NCBI GenBank assembly: GCA_020849295.1
Contig: JADLGN010000005.1
Span: 124,001 to 188,000, forward strand
DNA length: 64,000 nucleotides
Direction of reading: 5' to 3'
Origin: Bacteroidia bacterium
Lineage (GTDB): Bacteria; Bacteroidota; Bacteroidia; NS11-12g; UBA9320
Shown: piece after piece, positions 54,776 to 63,938 of the stretch
Layout of the letters: every line of letters begins with the position of its first letter
How positions within the stretch are numbered: position 1 is the first letter of the stretch
Made by a program: the position numbers and the translations under genes
The notes under the pieces: model-generated
The model's database searches: none
What the model saw: only the letters and a program-made list of their open reading frames with translations
What the model was told of the DNA's origin: nothing

Positions 54776-55462
54776 ATGAATTTTCTAAAAGGGCTTTCTG
54801 ACTTATTTTTCCCTGAAATATGTGTAAATTGCAATAGAACTTTGGTAAATGGAGAAAAAATTATTTGTACATTTTGCGAAGCTATATTGCCTATAAATAA
54901 ATTAAGTATTAATAATGATAATAAAATTATCAAATCACTGTGGGGAAGGGTTAATATTGATTTTGCTTATGCTTACTTAAATTTTAGAAAAGAAGGTATA
55001 ACACAAAATATTCTTCATTTTTTGAAATATAAAAACCGAAAAGATATTGGTTTGCATTTTGGCAAACTTCTCGCTTTATCAATAAAAGATGAAGAATTTA
55101 TAAAGAATACAGATTTTTTGATACCTGTTCCGTTACATAAGTCAAAACAAAAAAAAAGAGGTTACAACCAAAGTTATGAAATATGTAAGGGAATAAATGA
55201 AGTATTAAAAATTCCGGTTTTAGGAGATAATATTATTAGAATTTCAAAAACTCTCTCGCAAACTAACAAACACAGATTTGAAAGATGGGAAAATGTTTCA
55301 AAAAATTTTGAAGTAAAAAATAAGGGAATTTTTGTAGAGAAAAACATATTGATTGTAGATGATGTATTTACAACCGGAGCCACAATTGAAGCATGTTGCC
55401 AGCCATTGCAAAAAATAGATAACCTTAAAATTGGGATTGCAACTCTTGCTATAGCATATTAA
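54776..55462 (+). CDS. ComF family phosphoribosyltransferase-like protein
   Basis: N-term Cys zinc motif (FFPEICVNCNRTL...ICTFCEA), PVPLHKSKQKKRGYNQSYEICKGI, PRPP loop ILIVDDVFTTGATIE. Confidence 0.93.
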   Translation: MNFLKGLSDLFFPEICVNCNRTLVNGEKIICTFCEAILPINKLSINNDNKIIKSLWGRVNIDFAYAYLNFRKEGITQNILHFLKYKNRKDIGLHFGKLLALSIKDEEFIKNTDFLIPVPLHKSKQKKRGYNQSYEICKGINEVLKIPVLGDNIIRISKTLSQTNKHRFERWENVSKNFEVKNKGIFVEKNILIVDDVFTTGATIEACCQPLQKIDNLKIGIATLAIAY

Positions 55463-57870
55463 TCTTTGAAAAACTTAATAGGTGCAAATCCTTTGGTACA
55501 GATAAAATATATACCTTTTGAAAATTCAGAAACATCAATTAATTTTTTGCTTTGAGGTTCAACAATTACATTCAAAACTGATTTGCCAAGTATGTTTTCT
55601 ACTTGTATTGTCAATTTTTCAAAATCCGTATTTTCAATTGTAATATAATTGTGTGCCGGATTTGGATGTATTTTAATTTTTGAAGCTTTCAAATTCTTAA
55701 CCGAAGCACTATTTGACACTATGTTTACAGCGTCATTTGTAATTACTGCTTCTTGAAAATCAAAATAAATATATGCTCTGTTTTTTATATTTGTTCCTAC
55801 TTCGAGTTTGTCTTTAAGATTGATTTTAAAATCAATGAATCCATTGCTCAATTCTTCATTAACTTTTTTATCTGGCAAAAGTACATTTCTGAAAATCCAT
55901 GCATATTTATATCTGTATTTTCCATTTTGCAACCATGCTATGGGGGCTAATTCATAATTATGACTTGAGCTCATAATCACTCCTTTGTTTGCACTTATTA
56001 CAAAGTTGGGGTCGAGTGTGTCAATAATTTGAATATTATATGCAGTATCAATGCCGGTATTCTGAAACCTAATTTTATAATCAATAGAGGAGGTTTGGGT
56101 TGAAATTTTATAATCTTGCTTTGTTGTTTTATCATTGGGGTCAATCGCCGCAACAAGTTTCTGAGTTAATGTATCAAAATTGTTTGTTCTATCATCATCA
56201 TTTAGTTCATTAAGAATAACATTAGCTTTGTGGCAAATTTTATTTCCAAGTTGCAGTTCTACAGGGATTTTAGCTTTTGCCAGAATACAAATTGTTTCGC
56301 CTTTATTTAGTGAATTAATTTTCCAAATAATCTTATTCTGCTTATATGAAAATGGTACTATACTAAATTCTGTAAATTGAATTAAATTGTCAGGTGTAAA
56401 TTCTAATATTGCTTCATTAATATTTTGATTTCCTCTGTTTGTTATGCAAATTCTGTAATTTTCATCAAAACCAAGTCTTGCTCTCCAACCTGTAAAATCA
56501 GATACACTAACAGAAACATCATAGTGGCTACCATAAGGAATAATTCCAAAATCCAGCCCGGCATTTGTAAGTTGATCAGATGTATTAACTATCTTGGTTC
56601 CGCATGTAGATATATAGTATTTTGGAGTTTCAATATTTACAATATGCTGCGATATCTCTGGTTCTACAGGAATGAAAAATCTGCCGTTGTAATCAGTAGG
56701 TATATAAACATTTTCAGGCATAATTTTTACTAAAATTTCCTGCAGGTTATTTTCATCAAACTCTTGAGTGCAATTTTGGTTATTATCATAAAATACTTTA
56801 CCGGTTAGAAGTGCTTTGTCGTGTAATATTTTACCTGTTTTATTTAATATTAATCCTTGGTGAGTAACAAAAGAACCTGAAATATATACTTCATTTTCGC
56901 CATATATTTTTACATCATTTCCAATATAATCAATGTTGGGAACTGTCCAAACATTTCCATTCCAATATGCAATACTTGCAGTTTTCTTTGTAGTTTCATT
57001 TACAAATTTTCCACTTACCCAAAGTATATTTTTCACTTGGTGAATATCTGAAACAGACATGATTTTCCATTGATAAAGACCATTTGATATTTCTTTCCAG
57101 TTGTTTGATTTTAAACTGAAATTAATGTATCCATCGTAATCAACACCCGTTACAATTAAGCTGTCATTAAATTTTCCAAATCCTTCGAAGCCATTATTGT
57201 AGGGCGAACTTGTAATGTTTTTCCAAACGTTATTTTCAAATACTTTAAATGCCTTATTGTATGGATCAAAAGGTGTTGCAAACAGACCAATTGCCCAAAT
57301 TTTATTATTACTGTATTCAAAATCTGTAAAATAATCGTCAATTCCTTGGTCTGGATGATTAGATGCATATACTTTGCATGCAAGTCCTTCAACATTTAAA
57401 ATTGATATTGAACTACTATTATAATTAAACTTACCACATAGCAAAAGTTCATTGCCGGTAGTTATAAATTTTAGATTTTTTTCAGAAAAAATATTATCTG
57501 TATTAATTTTTTCCCAAAAATTTCCTTTATTTTTAATAATTAACAACTTCCCGTTATTATTTGTTAAAGCTAAATAAAGTTCATTTTTAAAATAAAATAA
57601 TGATTTTGCCGAAATTGAATCAATATTGTTTGATAAATATTTTATATAGCTACTTGTAATTTTAGGTAGATTTAACCAAAAATTTCCATCCCATTTTTTA
57701 ACTTCAAAAGTAGAATTACTTTTAGTAATCACCCATAGTTTATCATTATTTGAGCAAACAACCCCGGTTGAGAATGATTGTCCTTGTCCGAGAGGCAATA
57801 TAACCTGAGCTTTGGTATAGTTAAATACTACCAAACTCAAAATTATTATATTCAAAAACCTTTTTATCAT
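55459..57870 (-). CDS. Secreted beta-propeller-like/DUF7619-like protein with T9SS sorting domain
   Basis: Signal peptide; VKKWDGNFW / YWNGNVW propeller-like repeats; AIDPNDKTTKQDYKISTQTSSIDYKIRFQNTGIDTAYNIQIIDTLDPNF; C-term IKIHPNPAHNYITIENTDF...GIYFICTKGFAPIKFFKD. ATG overlaps upstream stop (ATGA). Confidence 0.88.
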   Translation of the reverse strand: MIKRFLNIIILSLVVFNYTKAQVILPLGQGQSFSTGVVCSNNDKLWVITKSNSTFEVKKWDGNFWLNLPKITSSYIKYLSNNIDSISAKSLFYFKNELYLALTNNNGKLLIIKNKGNFWEKINTDNIFSEKNLKFITTGNELLLCGKFNYNSSSISILNVEGLACKVYASNHPDQGIDDYFTDFEYSNNKIWAIGLFATPFDPYNKAFKVFENNVWKNITSSPYNNGFEGFGKFNDSLIVTGVDYDGYINFSLKSNNWKEISNGLYQWKIMSVSDIHQVKNILWVSGKFVNETTKKTASIAYWNGNVWTVPNIDYIGNDVKIYGENEVYISGSFVTHQGLILNKTGKILHDKALLTGKVFYDNNQNCTQEFDENNLQEILVKIMPENVYIPTDYNGRFFIPVEPEISQHIVNIETPKYYISTCGTKIVNTSDQLTNAGLDFGIIPYGSHYDVSVSVSDFTGWRARLGFDENYRICITNRGNQNINEAILEFTPDNLIQFTEFSIVPFSYKQNKIIWKINSLNKGETICILAKAKIPVELQLGNKICHKANVILNELNDDDRTNNFDTLTQKLVAAIDPNDKTTKQDYKISTQTSSIDYKIRFQNTGIDTAYNIQIIDTLDPNFVISANKGVIMSSSHNYELAPIAWLQNGKYRYKYAWIFRNVLLPDKKVNEELSNGFIDFKINLKDKLEVGTNIKNRAYIYFDFQEAVITNDAVNIVSNSASVKNLKASKIKIHPNPAHNYITIENTDFEKLTIQVENILGKSVLNVIVEPQSKKLIDVSEFSKGIYFICTKGFAPIKFFKD

Positions 57871-59099
57871 TTTTCGCCTCTATTTATTATGTAGTTTATA
57901 TTAAAATTCAAACCATAATTATATAATCTGTTTTTTACCGGATACGTTTTGCTATATGCCGAGCCAATTAATGACGAATAATTTGGTTCGATTGTAAAAA
58001 TAAAATTTCTTTTTGATTGATAAAATATTCCGATTGATACAGAATATCCTTTTGACCAATTTCTGATATTACTCTTATCAATATCTTCTAAATTAAGATA
58101 TGTTGGATTGACTGTTTTTCCGTCAGAATTTAAAAATTTTGAAAAGTTAAAACCAATTTTACTTTCAATTCCAAAATTGTTTTTAATATACGCTCTGTTG
58201 CCCAATGATACTGGTATTGCTAAAAACTCTAGTTTGCTTGTGCCATTGTGTTTAACAACCTCTGGGCTTGTAGGTAAATATGACAAAATTCCATATTTAG
58301 GGTCAACATTGGCAAATTCGCTAATAGTATAATTGTAATTGTGATGCACATTGTAACTTGAAATATACATTCCAGACCTAAAATAAAATTTCCCAATGAA
58401 ATTTATCTGTGCATTAAGTCCGTTATTCATTCCATTGCCAAATGCAGAACTTCCATTTATCGAATTGAAATATGTTCGGTTAATAAATTTATTCATTGAT
58501 TTATTTTCCTTAATTGCTTCCATACCCATAGCAGGTGAAAAATTTAAACCTATTTCAAATGAAATTTTATTTTTTCTATTATTTTTATCGTTAGGAAATT
58601 TTTTAAGATTTAAATTTTTAACATAAGACAATTCCTCAAACTTCAAATCAAATATGTTTGTAATATTGTGTGTTTTTAACTCTATTGGCAAAAAACTTGG
58701 AATAAAAATCTTTTCAGAAATATCTTGAACGATTTTCTCTTCAAATTTTGGCTTATTACTCTTAGAAATTAAAATGAATTTATTTTTATCTGCATATTCC
58801 TGTTTTGAATTGCCAAGTAATTTATCAATTGGTTTTTTAATTTTTACTTCTGAGTTTGGCTTATCTATTATTACAATTTTTCTACTATTTTCATTTTTTA
58901 AATAGAAGTAATTAAAGCTAATTCCGCCTAAAACTAATAGGAAAACAGTTAAAACAGAAAACCAAAAAATAATTATTCTCTTTTTACGAATATTTAATTT
59001 TTTCTCAATACCATACCAATCAGATAGCGGAATATCTGCTTCAAAAGAACTGAATTTGTCCTTCAAAATACTATTGATATGTTTATTATCTATTCTCAA
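57867..59099 (-). CDS. Predicted transenvelope anti-sigma factor (cytoplasmic anti-sigma stub, TM helix, linker, C-terminal OM beta-barrel)
   Basis: TTG start overlapping sigma stop (TTGA). N-term LKDKFSSFEADIPLSDWYGIEKKL, one TM (IIIFWFSVLTVFLLVLGGISFNYF), ~100 aa Lys-rich linker, then ISFEIGLNFSPAMG...NYGLNFNINYII amphipathic strands. Confidence 0.78.
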   Translation of the reverse strand: MRIDNKHINSILKDKFSSFEADIPLSDWYGIEKKLNIRKKRIIIFWFSVLTVFLLVLGGISFNYFYLKNENSRKIVIIDKPNSEVKIKKPIDKLLGNSKQEYADKNKFILISKSNKPKFEEKIVQDISEKIFIPSFLPIELKTHNITNIFDLKFEELSYVKNLNLKKFPNDKNNRKNKISFEIGLNFSPAMGMEAIKENKSMNKFINRTYFNSINGSSAFGNGMNNGLNAQINFIGKFYFRSGMYISSYNVHHNYNYTISEFANVDPKYGILSYLPTSPEVVKHNGTSKLEFLAIPVSLGNRAYIKNNFGIESKIGFNFSKFLNSDGKTVNPTYLNLEDIDKSNIRNWSKGYSVSIGIFYQSKRNFIFTIEPNYSSLIGSAYSKTYPVKNRLYNYGLNFNINYIINRGEK

Positions 59100-59668
59100 C
59101 TTTTCAATTCACTTTTCTTAATTTCATCTATCAACATAGTTCTAGCTCTACTCAACCTGCTTTTTGATGAACCTACTTGTATGCCCAGAGTGTCAGCTAT
59201 TTGCTGATGTGAAAAACCATCAACCGAATACATATTTAAAACAACTTTGTACTTGTCTGGTAGTTTATTTATATAATCAAATACTCTTGCTACAGGCATA
59301 TTTTTTAAAATTTTTGTAAACTCATTTTCGTCCTCTGTGTTTGATTCGTCAGCTATATAATGAATATTTTCATTTATATCCATAAACACCTGCTTGTTTG
59401 CACTACTCTTTAAATATGAAAGGCAAGTATTTATAAATATTCGAGTCATCCAAGTTTCGACAGAACTATCGCCTTTAAAGCTAGAAAATTTAGTGAAAAC
59501 TTTAATAAAGCCGTCATGAACCAAATCTCTGGCTATTTCACTATTGCTGCTATATCTGAGGCAAACACCCATCATTTTTTTAGAATAAATTTCAAATAAC
59601 AATCTTTGGCTGTTTCGATTATTATTTTTACATCCTTCAATAATTTCATAAATCTTGGATTTGTCCAA
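59096..59668 (-). CDS. ECF-type RNA polymerase sigma factor
   Basis: Sigma2 (GVCLRYSSNSEIARDLVHDGFIKVFTKFSSFKGDSSVETWMTRIFINTCLSYL) and sigma4 (LPDKYKVVLNMYSVDGFSHQQIADTLGIQVGSSKSRLSRARTML). Confidence 0.95.
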   Translation of the reverse strand: MDKSKIYEIIEGCKNNNRNSQRLLFEIYSKKMMGVCLRYSSNSEIARDLVHDGFIKVFTKFSSFKGDSSVETWMTRIFINTCLSYLKSSANKQVFMDINENIHYIADESNTEDENEFTKILKNMPVARVFDYINKLPDKYKVVLNMYSVDGFSHQQIADTLGIQVGSSKSRLSRARTMLIDEIKKSELKS

Positions 59669-59734
59669 TGTTTACAGTATTTATAGACTTTGAAATATAA
59701 AAAGGTTGCATTATAATTTATAATATTAAATAAA

Positions 59735-59763
59735 AAAAGGGGTTCAAAATTTGAACCCCTTTT
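59735..59763 (-). terminator. Terminator downstream of the giant T9SS protein gene
   Basis: AAAAGGGGTTCAAA-A-TTTGAACCCCTTTT, 14-bp perfect arms with flanking A/T tracts. Confidence 0.85.
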
Positions 59764-59783: not shown

Positions 59784-62700
59784 TTATTTGTTTAAAGAAA
59801 TTGTTCTGGTTATTTGCTTTCCGTCAATTATCATTCTTACATGATACAAACCATTTGCTTGATTACTTAGGTCTATATTGTGAGTTCCTGATTGTCCGAA
59901 AACATTGTTATTTGTGCATACAACAGCTCCTGTTGAATTGTAAACACTGATGTTCATGTTTGTAGGAGTTGCGAAATTGTAACTTACGTTTACAATACCA
60001 TTACTTGGATTTGGATATACGCTAATATTTTGGTTAACATCAATTGAATTAACACTATTGATAGTTTTAAACATTCTACTTACCCAAATATTTCTTTCAT
60101 AAGGCTGGCTAAGGTTACCACTTAAGTCAGCTACTCTGAAAGTTACAGTATAAAGTCCTTCTTCGTAAGTATTCAAGTTATTGAAAATTACCTGTAATTT
60201 TGGACGAAGCACAGTTGGAGCATCATAGTTATCTGTAATTGTCAATCCTTCTGAAGCATCAATTTGAGAGAAAATGCCAACATTCATTGCAGCACCATGT
60301 ATTATTGGAGCAATATTGTCAATAACTCTTACCCAACGCTTACGTTTTGTAACATTGCCTGATCCATCAGTTGCAGTAAATTCGTCATAGTATAAACCTA
60401 ATAAATATGGATTTACGTTACTTGTACGAGTAATAGATACCTGAGAGTTATCATAATAATTATCTTTTGTACTTGCTTGAATTGGAGTATAAGAATTGTT
60501 AACAACCCATACAACTGTATCAAGTGTATTAAGAATAATTTCTGGTCCAACATAATCATCAACAATATATGTGTATGTTTTTGTATCAGCTTTATTACCT
60601 GAACCATCAGTTGCATTATAAATCATAGGATATGAACCTTTGAAACGAGTATCAACTGGTCCTGAAGAACCTGGTGTAACATCAAGCATAGGATTATCGT
60701 AGTTGTCTGTTACAGTTGTACGGTCAATAAACACAGATACTATTTGTACTTTTACTACATTACTAACATCTGCATCGCTATTAGATATAACAGGTTTTTT
60801 AGTATCTTGTACAATAACAATTCTTTGCTTAGTTGAATTATTTGAAGCAAGGTCATTTACAGAATAAGTAATAATGTAAGTACCTAAAACGTTAGCATCA
60901 ACTGTTCCTGTGATAACAATTGCATTTGTTAAATTACCATCTTTGTTGTCCATTGCTGTTGCACCATCTTCAGTATAAGTACCGAAAACTTCGATTCTTA
61001 CAGTATCGCTTCCATTTAAAGTAAGTACTGGGTTTGTTTGGTCTTTTACCACATATACCACTCTTGTTACGGGAAGTGCAGCATTACCACCGGCGTCTTT
61101 TACATTATAAGTAACATAATAAACACCGGTAAAATTCATGTCAAGGTCACTTGTAATAGTGATTTTTGAACTAATGTCGCCTTCAGTTGGGTCAGTAGCT
61201 TTAGCACCATATTCAGTATATGTAGAACCAACTTCAAGGTGTAATGTATCATCATTATTAAGAGTTAAAGTTGGGGCTAAATTATCATTACTTATTACAA
61301 CTCTGTAATCTTCAAATTCTCCAATTCTGTTTGCATTATTAATTCCACTTGAAGCACCACATGGCTCATTAGGGTCAGTATTGTAACTTGTACCCACTCT
61401 CATTCTTGTTTTACCTTCAAATGCAACAATTGAAGATGGAACAGTAAAGCTAGCTGTAAATGTAGATGTAGAAGCTGTAGATTCGTAAGCAACCTCTTCA
61501 CCTGCATCAGAGAAATCTCCATCAATATTCCAGTCAATCCATACTTTACGTGACATTGGGTTTACAGTTGTGGTTCTACTAAGACTGATATTATATGTTG
61601 CACCAAAAAGTAAAGATGCTGATATGTCTGTATTTGTATAATCGTCATATCCCTGAACATTATTTGATGAATTATTATTTATTAATTCATTATTATCTTT
61701 GTCAGTTAAAGTTACGTTGTTAATTGCTACATCAGTTGATGATGATACACCTAATAATGGAGTACAATGTTCAACAGCAATTACGTAATCAGATTTAATA
61801 ACACAATTTCGAGTAGCAGCAGAATCTAAAGTATTCCAACCGCATAATGAAACCGTATATTTACCTTTAGCATTACATTTTATTTGAATTTCACCTGTGT
61901 AAGGGTCAAAATTTACAACACTTACTGTAGAAGGGAAAAAGTTCCATTTGTAATTATCGGCTTTTATTGCTTTACCTTGTAATGGACAGAAAGGTGTAAT
62001 AGTCACAACATCACCAGTATTAGGACGGCGATTGTCTGCTTCAAAATCAAGTTCGGCTTTAGTATGTGGTGTAACAACTACTACTTTCTTAGTAATACTG
62101 CTTGAACCCATACATGTGGTTGCAGTTAATTTTACATCATAAGTATTATCTGTTTGAATTGAATAATCTAGATCTTTTGAATATCCAACCTCACCAAAAC
62201 CTGGCTCAATTTCCCATACATAATCAGTTTTACCTAACACATGTTGTGAAGTGTTTACATAAGTATATGTGTTAGGATTATATAAAGTATCAGGAATTAC
62301 AAAATCAGCAATTGGAGCATTTATTGGACCTTTTTCAGTTGTCCAAGAAGCTATAAATCCTGAGTCATTTCCAGAACTATTTGTAGTAAATAATACATAC
62401 ATTGCACCAGAATTTGCAACTATAGGAGTAGTTTTAGAAGGTGCATTACCAAGTGTAAAGCCAGATCCTGTATGTAATGGTGTACCTGTAGCATCTGTAC
62501 CGTCATAAATTCTTAAAATATCACCTGCTGCTACTTTAAACTGGCTGAATGTTAATGAAATTTTCTTTGCACCGCAAGGTATTATTGTAGCATAGTCAAC
62601 ACGATTGTTAGAATAGTTTCCTGTTCTTCCGCCATCATCTATTAAATTACCATTTGATTCATAAATTGGAATAACTGTACCAGCACCCAAATTATTATCT

Positions 62701-63938
62701 TTAAATGGAGTAACTCTTACATACTTTGGTTTACATAATAAGTTTGAAGGACCTTTACTGTTTGATGTTTGCAAGCAAACGGTATAATCGCCTGTCATAT
62801 TGAAAAATACAGGAGGATTTGCATTAGAAAATGGATCATTTCCTACAAGATTTGAATTGTAAATTTCAACATCTGTTCTTGTATTTGCAGAGTCAATAGG
62901 GTCATACATATACCAACTCCAGTATGTAGGTCCGTTTGTAGATAAATCAATAAAGTTTACCGTACCAAATTTTTCTACTTCATTAGTATTTGAAGCAAAA
63001 TCAACTACAGGAGGATTTGATGGAGATTTAATATTTATACATTTCAAAACTGAATCGCGTCCTAAGCAGTTTTGGCTTTTTAAACGAACACAATTATTAC
63101 CAGGTGTATTAAATATATGTGTAGCATTAGTTGTAAAATATTCTGTTGTACCATCATCATTTACATCCCACTCGTGTGAAATATACCCAGTTTGATTATT
63201 GTTTGTCATTTTTACAGGTGTTCCTTCATACGCAGTACTTGGCATATAAAACCCTGCTGATAGACTTGTAGGATTAGCTAAATTAATTGTATAATCTTCG
63301 CACTCTCCATAATACCAGCTATAGCTTGAAGACAAACATGCTTGTCCTGAATTTAATTGATAATACTGGTAAGATGACATTACTCTCATTCTACTTTGTC
63401 CTGGTGATACACCACATGGAACTGTAAAATTGTTACTTGCCAAAGCTCCACCACCAGCAGAAGGTGCTCCGTTTGCTACTGAAGACCAACCTGTTGACAT
63501 AAACTCGGAAGATTGAAATACATTATCTCTGTTCAAATCTATCCAGCAATAGAAATAAACTTGATAAGAGTAAGAGTAAGTAGAACTTCCGTAAGAAGAA
63601 CTTGCTTCAAGAGTGTACTTACTTCCACTTGATAATGTAAAAGATGGCTTACTTGACATTAATGAGTAACCATTTCCTGATGAGCCAGGTGTACCAGATA
63701 AACCATAAGTACATCCGTCGGCACCATGTTCGTAAAGAATGCTTCCGGAAACATCTTTCACTCTCAATCTTTCGATTGGCCAATACCAATAGCCGCTGTA
63801 ATAACATCCGTAATAGGAGTTTGCCACACAATATGGCGCTTGTGCTTTAGTTTGGTTAAAGGTAGATGTACCGGCCAAACTTAGTAAAATTAGGAGTAAT
63901 CCTAATAAGTTGTTTTTAAAAGTAAATTTGTTTGACAT
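59784..63938 (-). CDS. Giant secreted multidomain adhesin-like protein (GEVED x2, PKD, CUB-like, DUF5011/Ig-like x5, T9SS sorting domain)
   Basis: FYCWIDLNRDNVFQSSEF...GECEDYTINL and VWIDWNIDGDFSDAGEEV...GEFEDYRVVI (GEVED); THIFNTPGNNCVRL (PKD); ILRIYDGTDATGTPLHTGSGF (CUB-like); five repeats containing GxY..TYxVxDxxGN; C-term ISVYPNPSNGIVNVSYNF...GLYHVRMIIDGKQITRTISLNK. Confidence 0.9.
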   Translation of the reverse strand: MSNKFTFKNNLLGLLLILLSLAGTSTFNQTKAQAPYCVANSYYGCYYSGYWYWPIERLRVKDVSGSILYEHGADGCTYGLSGTPGSSGNGYSLMSSKPSFTLSSGSKYTLEASSSYGSSTYSYSYQVYFYCWIDLNRDNVFQSSEFMSTGWSSVANGAPSAGGGALASNNFTVPCGVSPGQSRMRVMSSYQYYQLNSGQACLSSSYSWYYGECEDYTINLANPTSLSAGFYMPSTAYEGTPVKMTNNNQTGYISHEWDVNDDGTTEYFTTNATHIFNTPGNNCVRLKSQNCLGRDSVLKCINIKSPSNPPVVDFASNTNEVEKFGTVNFIDLSTNGPTYWSWYMYDPIDSANTRTDVEIYNSNLVGNDPFSNANPPVFFNMTGDYTVCLQTSNSKGPSNLLCKPKYVRVTPFKDNNLGAGTVIPIYESNGNLIDDGGRTGNYSNNRVDYATIIPCGAKKISLTFSQFKVAAGDILRIYDGTDATGTPLHTGSGFTLGNAPSKTTPIVANSGAMYVLFTTNSSGNDSGFIASWTTEKGPINAPIADFVIPDTLYNPNTYTYVNTSQHVLGKTDYVWEIEPGFGEVGYSKDLDYSIQTDNTYDVKLTATTCMGSSSITKKVVVVTPHTKAELDFEADNRRPNTGDVVTITPFCPLQGKAIKADNYKWNFFPSTVSVVNFDPYTGEIQIKCNAKGKYTVSLCGWNTLDSAATRNCVIKSDYVIAVEHCTPLLGVSSSTDVAINNVTLTDKDNNELINNNSSNNVQGYDDYTNTDISASLLFGATYNISLSRTTTVNPMSRKVWIDWNIDGDFSDAGEEVAYESTASTSTFTASFTVPSSIVAFEGKTRMRVGTSYNTDPNEPCGASSGINNANRIGEFEDYRVVISNDNLAPTLTLNNDDTLHLEVGSTYTEYGAKATDPTEGDISSKITITSDLDMNFTGVYYVTYNVKDAGGNAALPVTRVVYVVKDQTNPVLTLNGSDTVRIEVFGTYTEDGATAMDNKDGNLTNAIVITGTVDANVLGTYIITYSVNDLASNNSTKQRIVIVQDTKKPVISNSDADVSNVVKVQIVSVFIDRTTVTDNYDNPMLDVTPGSSGPVDTRFKGSYPMIYNATDGSGNKADTKTYTYIVDDYVGPEIILNTLDTVVWVVNNSYTPIQASTKDNYYDNSQVSITRTSNVNPYLLGLYYDEFTATDGSGNVTKRKRWVRVIDNIAPIIHGAAMNVGIFSQIDASEGLTITDNYDAPTVLRPKLQVIFNNLNTYEEGLYTVTFRVADLSGNLSQPYERNIWVSRMFKTINSVNSIDVNQNISVYPNPSNGIVNVSYNFATPTNMNISVYNSTGAVVCTNNNVFGQSGTHNIDLSNQANGLYHVRMIIDGKQITRTISLNK

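Follow-up and report, generated by a model that had tools for sequence, protein, structure and literature searches.

An ECF sigma factor, a predicted Dma-type transenvelope anti-sigma factor and a T9SS cargo protein encoded as an overlapping gene triplet

What links a sigma factor, a putative anti-sigma factor and a large secreted protein whose genes overlap one after the other, and does the third protein take part in the switch that the first two would form? The question is raised by a locus in the window, i.e. the whole stretch of 64,000 nucleotides from a Bacteroidia bacterium that was analysed here. Three minus-strand genes overlap their neighbours by 4 nt each, the sigma stop and the anti-sigma start sharing TTGA (59096-59099) and the anti-sigma and cargo genes meeting at ATGA (57867-57870). 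The coordinates, strands and overlaps given in the initial annotation were borne out on the sequence, and the overlapping sigma/anti-sigma/T9SS triplet is confirmed as a real feature of this DNA. The locus contains:

59096-59668, minus strand: ECF sigma factor, 190 aa, TTG start (Pfam, NCBIfam)
57867-59099, minus strand: candidate Dma-type transenvelope anti-sigma factor, 410 aa, TTG start (AlphaFold model, homologue alignment)
55459-57870, minus strand: T9SS cargo protein, 803 aa (Por_Secre_tail and DUF7619 in 37 of 37 homologues)
59684-59710, minus strand: predicted ECF-type promoter TGCAACC-N15-GTCTA, starting 42 nt before the sigma start
59735-59763, minus strand: terminator-like hairpin between the gene of a 1384-aa protein and the triplet, upstream of sigma
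59784-63938, minus strand: T9SS cargo protein, 1384 aa, with a CTD (Pfam), a predicted regulon partner in relatives by the motif upstream of its orthologs

A promoter or terminator splitting off the third gene had been named beforehand as evidence that would speak against a joint function. A hairpin scan of the unit found no terminator-like hairpin between the triplet genes, and promoter-like sites inside the triplet did not exceed their number in shuffled sequence. Together with the hairpin upstream of sigma, this lets the triplet read as its own transcription unit, which would start within the intergenic DNA of about 70 nt. At the other end, the last 4 nt of the cargo gene (55459-55462 of the window) are shared with the end of a convergent ComF-like gene, which leaves no room for a terminator between the two.

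The first protein of the triplet carries sigma regions 2 and 4 (Pfam Sigma70_r2, E 5e-12; Sigma70_r4_2, E 3e-14), and the ECF superfamily is the sole level above cut-off in NCBIfam. The middle protein can be divided into four parts:

58977-59099, minus strand: N-terminal cytoplasmic stub, residues 1-41, putatively sigma-binding (conserved IDxLLK...DWxAIExKL, model helices)
58902-58976, minus strand: transmembrane helix, about residues 42-66 (hydropathy, modelled helix)
58566-58895, minus strand: disordered periplasmic tether, about residues 69-178 (low pLDDT)
57888-58565, minus strand: predicted OmpA-like outer-membrane beta-barrel, residues 179-404 (pLDDT, Foldseek, Pfam in homologues)

An N-terminal stub, one transmembrane helix and a Lys-rich linker had been proposed for this protein, and all three are found: the stub (SFEADIPLSDWYGIEKKL) carries the motif, residues 42-60 form a hydrophobic segment with a mean Kyte-Doolittle value of 2.7, and the tether holds 21 K in 108 residues. 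The basic residues ahead of the membrane helix follow the positive-inside pattern and thus fit a cytoplasmic N-terminus. In the AlphaFold model of 57867-59099, which had been suggested as a check and was built with 36 homologues, helices at residues 6-17 and 25-68 are followed by disorder at 72-174 (pLDDT < 50) and by a barrel at 179-404 with pLDDT 91-98 in blocks of ten. The proposed C-terminal barrel is therefore present in the model, but its supposed aromatic end is not, as the protein closes with '...NINYIINRGEK', which is not aromatic. Foldseek places OmpA, NspA, OmpW and OprG as neighbours of the barrel, and OMP_b-brl_2 is matched by 16 of the 36 homologues. A PDB search with the anti-sigma profile returned a single match, to a membrane-helix protein (E 0.014), that was judged to be due to chance.

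The tether measures 109-180 residues in all 36 homologues. As a stretched chain extends about 0.34 nm per residue, the stretched tether is longer than the periplasm is wide. Stub, transmembrane helix, disordered tether and barrel are the parts described for Dma proteins (PMC13088901), and their presence in the model supports a Dma-type architecture that is predicted to span both membranes; the shared layout and the adjoining ECF sigma were compared with the published description of Dma proteins. Alternatively, the barrel protein could be a plain membrane protein that lies next to the sigma gene incidentally, and it is in line with this that no Pfam anti-sigma domain was recognised in the stub. 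Such a reading is highly improbable, however, given that the order of stub, helix, tether and barrel and the adjacency to sigma both match Dma and that the sigma/anti-sigma pairing holds across the phylum.

The initial annotation had described the third gene product as a propeller/DUF7619-like protein secreted by the T9SS, and domain searches and modelling agree with this description:

56851-57807, minus strand: beta-propeller, residues 22-340 (AlphaFold; Foldseek; Kelch chains by sequence)
55726-56142, minus strand: DUF7619, residues 577-715 (Pfam E 7e-32)
55462-55671, minus strand: type A T9SS sorting domain (CTD), residues 734-803 (Pfam Por_Secre_tail E 3e-10; profile matches)

A signal peptide (N-terminal ...NYTKAQ, read off the sequence) precedes the propeller, and Ig-like domains and DUF11 are also present. 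In the AlphaFold model (pLDDT 88) the propeller is followed by the Ig-like domains, and the best Foldseek matches are integrin alpha ectodomains, with low TM-scores and a likeness in domain order and shape for which no kinship is claimed. The family profile matches the solved T9SS CTDs 8glk_D and 8glj_D as well as SdrD and Kelch propellers. These results support the third protein as a type A T9SS cargo and predicted surface protein. The secretion machinery is represented in the window genome by SprA (G000:C31), which occurs in 55 of 58 related genomes including this one, and about 103 proteins with a T9SS CTD exceed the Pfam cut-off in its 2.68 Mb.

If the three genes belong together, their order should persist in relatives, and its absence there had been named as a second argument against the proposal. 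An anti-sigma homologue occurs in 47 of the 58 related genomes. At loci picked by this homologue alone, the genes follow one another as in the window, either overlapping or separated by small gaps, and wherever sigma and anti-sigma are both readable at a related locus, they adjoin. In two families of the order, a T9SS-type third gene follows 43 of 44 readable sigma/anti-sigma pairs (in 42 cases a cargo homologue, in the remaining one an unrelated protein of 501 aa whose CTD match is weak), counts that are not phylogenetically independent. Elsewhere in the phylum the pair is common and the T9SS third gene follows it in 2 of about 31 cases (L084, L092). In family 2, homologues of ComF, ThiL and the 1384-aa protein were not found beside the triplet, yet the triplet itself is intact. 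The gene triplet is kept as a unit across the order, beyond chance. Distances of anti-sigma and cargo also correlate once ThiL is removed (partial r 0.80, a descriptive coefficient), while pairs with ComF reach 0.37-0.62, the upper value also being that of cargo and ComF. The window genome holds three sigma/anti-sigma/T9SS-type sets, namely that of the window, L071 on contig C16 and L072 on contig C37, the last with a third gene unrelated to the window cargo apart from the weak CTD match.

Some further observations were made among these loci. A single-protein scan of genome contigs returned three loci in Bacteroidetes MAGs, one of them labelled Chitinophaga pinensis. The anti-sigma gene of G017 (L048:6195-7550) and the cargo gene of G009 (L038:5356-7763) are each read in two frames, which reflects a frameshift or an assembly error. 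In another family a single fusion protein is encoded after the sigma gene (L089:662-2908, minus strand; L112:1501-3816 and L113:1501-3816, plus strand), composed of an anti-sigma-like stub, a transmembrane helix, a linker, a TonB plug, a VWA domain and a T9SS CTD. Such a combination of an inner-membrane anchor and a T9SS export signal is topologically odd; in sister versions (L117), YfbK_C takes the place of the CTD at the end.

Going beyond the initial annotation, an ECF-type promoter was found to mark the triplet operon and other T9SS cargo genes, the 1384-aa orthologs included. TGCAACC-N15/16-GTCTA lies 41-49 nt upstream of sigma at 24 of 24 family 1 loci with readable upstream DNA, and family 2 uses the variant TGCAACC-N15/16-CGTCAT. 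The motif is tied to the triplet sigma by position alone and could be common to paralogous ECF sigma factors. In the window genome the strict pattern (N15/16 with GTCTA) occurs essentially once, at the triplet, and this promoter is the only clear one there. Allowing two mismatches gives 8 matches in this genome against 6 for the reversed pattern, and a loose pattern gives 6 against 5; with 8 against 6, the window genome by itself does not reveal a regulon.

Across the family 1 genomes, strict sites sum to 81 against 40 for the reversed pattern. Motif sites within ORFs were discarded as chance, and most intergenic sites near ORFs lie before genes of large secreted proteins that have T9SS tails (L134, L136, L138, L140, L142, L143, L153 and one DUF7948/CHU_C family in five genomes), the exceptions being genes for RNase E/G and for an HMA protein. 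Independent T9SS cases amount to 8 of 10 against about 4.5 percent of genes, a background based on about 105 CTD proteins and a gene number estimated from 2.68 Mb; the binomial p near 1e-9 takes account neither of relatedness nor of how often cargo genes begin a transcript of their own, and the limit on the distance from site to ORF was chosen after viewing the list, a wider one giving 8 of 12. The DUF7948 protein, which has a type B (CHU_C) tail, is preceded at about 47 nt by TGCAACC-N17-GTCTA (L147, L158, L168, L185, L186), one base over the core spacing.

The 1384-aa protein, a prominent candidate target, combines GEVED, PKD and CUB-like domains with five Ig-like stretches in the window. 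A matrix trained solely on sigma promoters detected the motif ahead of 8 of the 11 orthologs of its gene, at a distance of 79-96 nt and with scores of 17-31 against a shuffled maximum of 17.5. The site before the window gene itself is degenerate (score 8.1, near the 99th percentile of random pieces). For family 2 it was predicted, before the results were seen, that intergenic sites outside the triplet should precede T9SS cargo. The variant occurs 26 times there against 1 for the reversed pattern; all 22 intergenic sites lie before the triplet sigma (13) or T9SS cargo (9), and the remaining 4 lie inside ORFs. Eight of the cargo sites precede 1384-aa orthologs unlinked to the triplet (35-37 percent identical where full-length) and one precedes another DUF7619/GEVED T9SS protein. 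The prediction held. From the promoter sequences, it is strongly indicated that the sigma factor drives transcription of the triplet operon itself and of further T9SS cargo genes, chiefly the giant GEVED/PKD/Ig protein, via TGCAACC-N15/16-GTC.

A sigma factor that controls the secretion machinery, the cargo reporting the capacity of the machine, would be a different explanation, and one with relatives: ECF promoters in Flavobacterium psychrophilum (SM6) control genes of T9SS components together with one ECF/anti-sigma pair (PMC9723704), and SigP of Porphyromonas gingivalis drives por genes (PMC7712824). No strict site lies directly before SprA in the window genome, searched with the strict pattern. 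The near-single strict site at the triplet and the position of sites in relatives before cargo rather than machinery genes make such homeostatic control improbable.

Taken together, we consider it on balance probable that the locus encodes an autoregulated Dma-type transenvelope switch, with T9SS surface proteins as its regulon and the product of the third gene as its partner at the surface. With its barrel inserted in the outer membrane, the anti-sigma factor would hold sigma. The third protein, made beside the anti-sigma factor and delivered by the T9SS, would dock on the outer face of the barrel, and its presence or a bound ligand would alter the tether or the stub, upon which sigma would be released and more surface protein made. 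Binding of sigma by the stub, the span across both membranes, recognition of the promoter by the triplet sigma and docking of the cargo on the barrel are what we infer here.

Perhaps, the third gene could be output only, so that an ordinary Dma-type system senses something else via its barrel and the cargo is one of several induced surface proteins. The genes bt_1555-1557 downstream in the Dma2 operon are induced and can be deleted without a change in vesiculation (PMC13088901), the regulon already includes other T9SS cargo at separate loci, and one triplet of the window genome (L072) has an unrelated third gene. Against this stand the position of the third gene, which stays directly behind the anti-sigma gene even in family 2, where the 1384-aa gene has moved elsewhere, and the overlap of the two genes, which would couple the amounts of both proteins. 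A role as output only thus appears rather unlikely, and a role as partner is favoured, though not proven, based on this contrast with the 1384-aa gene and on the partial r given above. We put forward tentatively, as a minority possibility, that the sigma switch is physically triggered or clamped by the exported third protein, the barrel reading its arrival as export state or surface ligand and the same polypeptide passing this on to sigma.

Parts of this arrangement are already published, namely Dma anti-sigma factors, signalling from PorA to SigP and an ECF regulon of T9SS machinery (PMC13088901, PMC7712824, PMC9723704). The Dma2 operon is autoregulated, and its three genes are induced upon loss of the anti-sigma factor (PMC13088901). 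Dma operons share with the window a sigma-adjacent gene, a sigma-binding stub (putative here), a transmembrane helix, a long tether, a barrel and the number of three genes, but their third gene is BT_1557 (DUF4943), with no T9SS cargo, and they are known to act on NigD1 or glycan loci and on vesiculation. PorA, which acts on PorXY-SigP in P. gingivalis (PMC7712824), is likewise a surface protein with a T9SS CTD that feeds an ECF sigma, although SigP is under a two-component system without an adjacent transenvelope anti-sigma factor and drives T9SS components, not cargo. The SM6 regulon (PMC9723704) similarly links T9SS genes and an ECF/anti-sigma operon by ECF-type promoters, whereas its targets are machinery genes and no cargo is described in the sigma operon. 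In FecI/FecR/FecA (PMC9249621), an ECF sigma is also released by an outer-membrane event; there, however, TonB receptor and anti-sigma are separate, whereas the window has one polypeptide predicted across both membranes, and no TonB plug was found by Pfam in the window proteins. No precedent for a Dma-type operon with T9SS cargo and a T9SS-cargo regulon was found in a limited search of open-access literature, within which this would be, as far as known, the first adjacent transenvelope anti-sigma factor tied to T9SS cargo.

In this bacterium and its relatives, a candidate partner is encoded with the anti-sigma factor and the promoter motif reveals the likely targets, so that both signal and output become testable. 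To our knowledge, no sensed signal is known for Dma-type anti-sigma factors. Should the third protein act as trigger or clamp, the system would constitute a feedback between the secretion of surface proteins and transcription. The promoter signature shared by the triplet and other genes of secreted surface proteins suggests a circuit that both senses and sets the cell surface.
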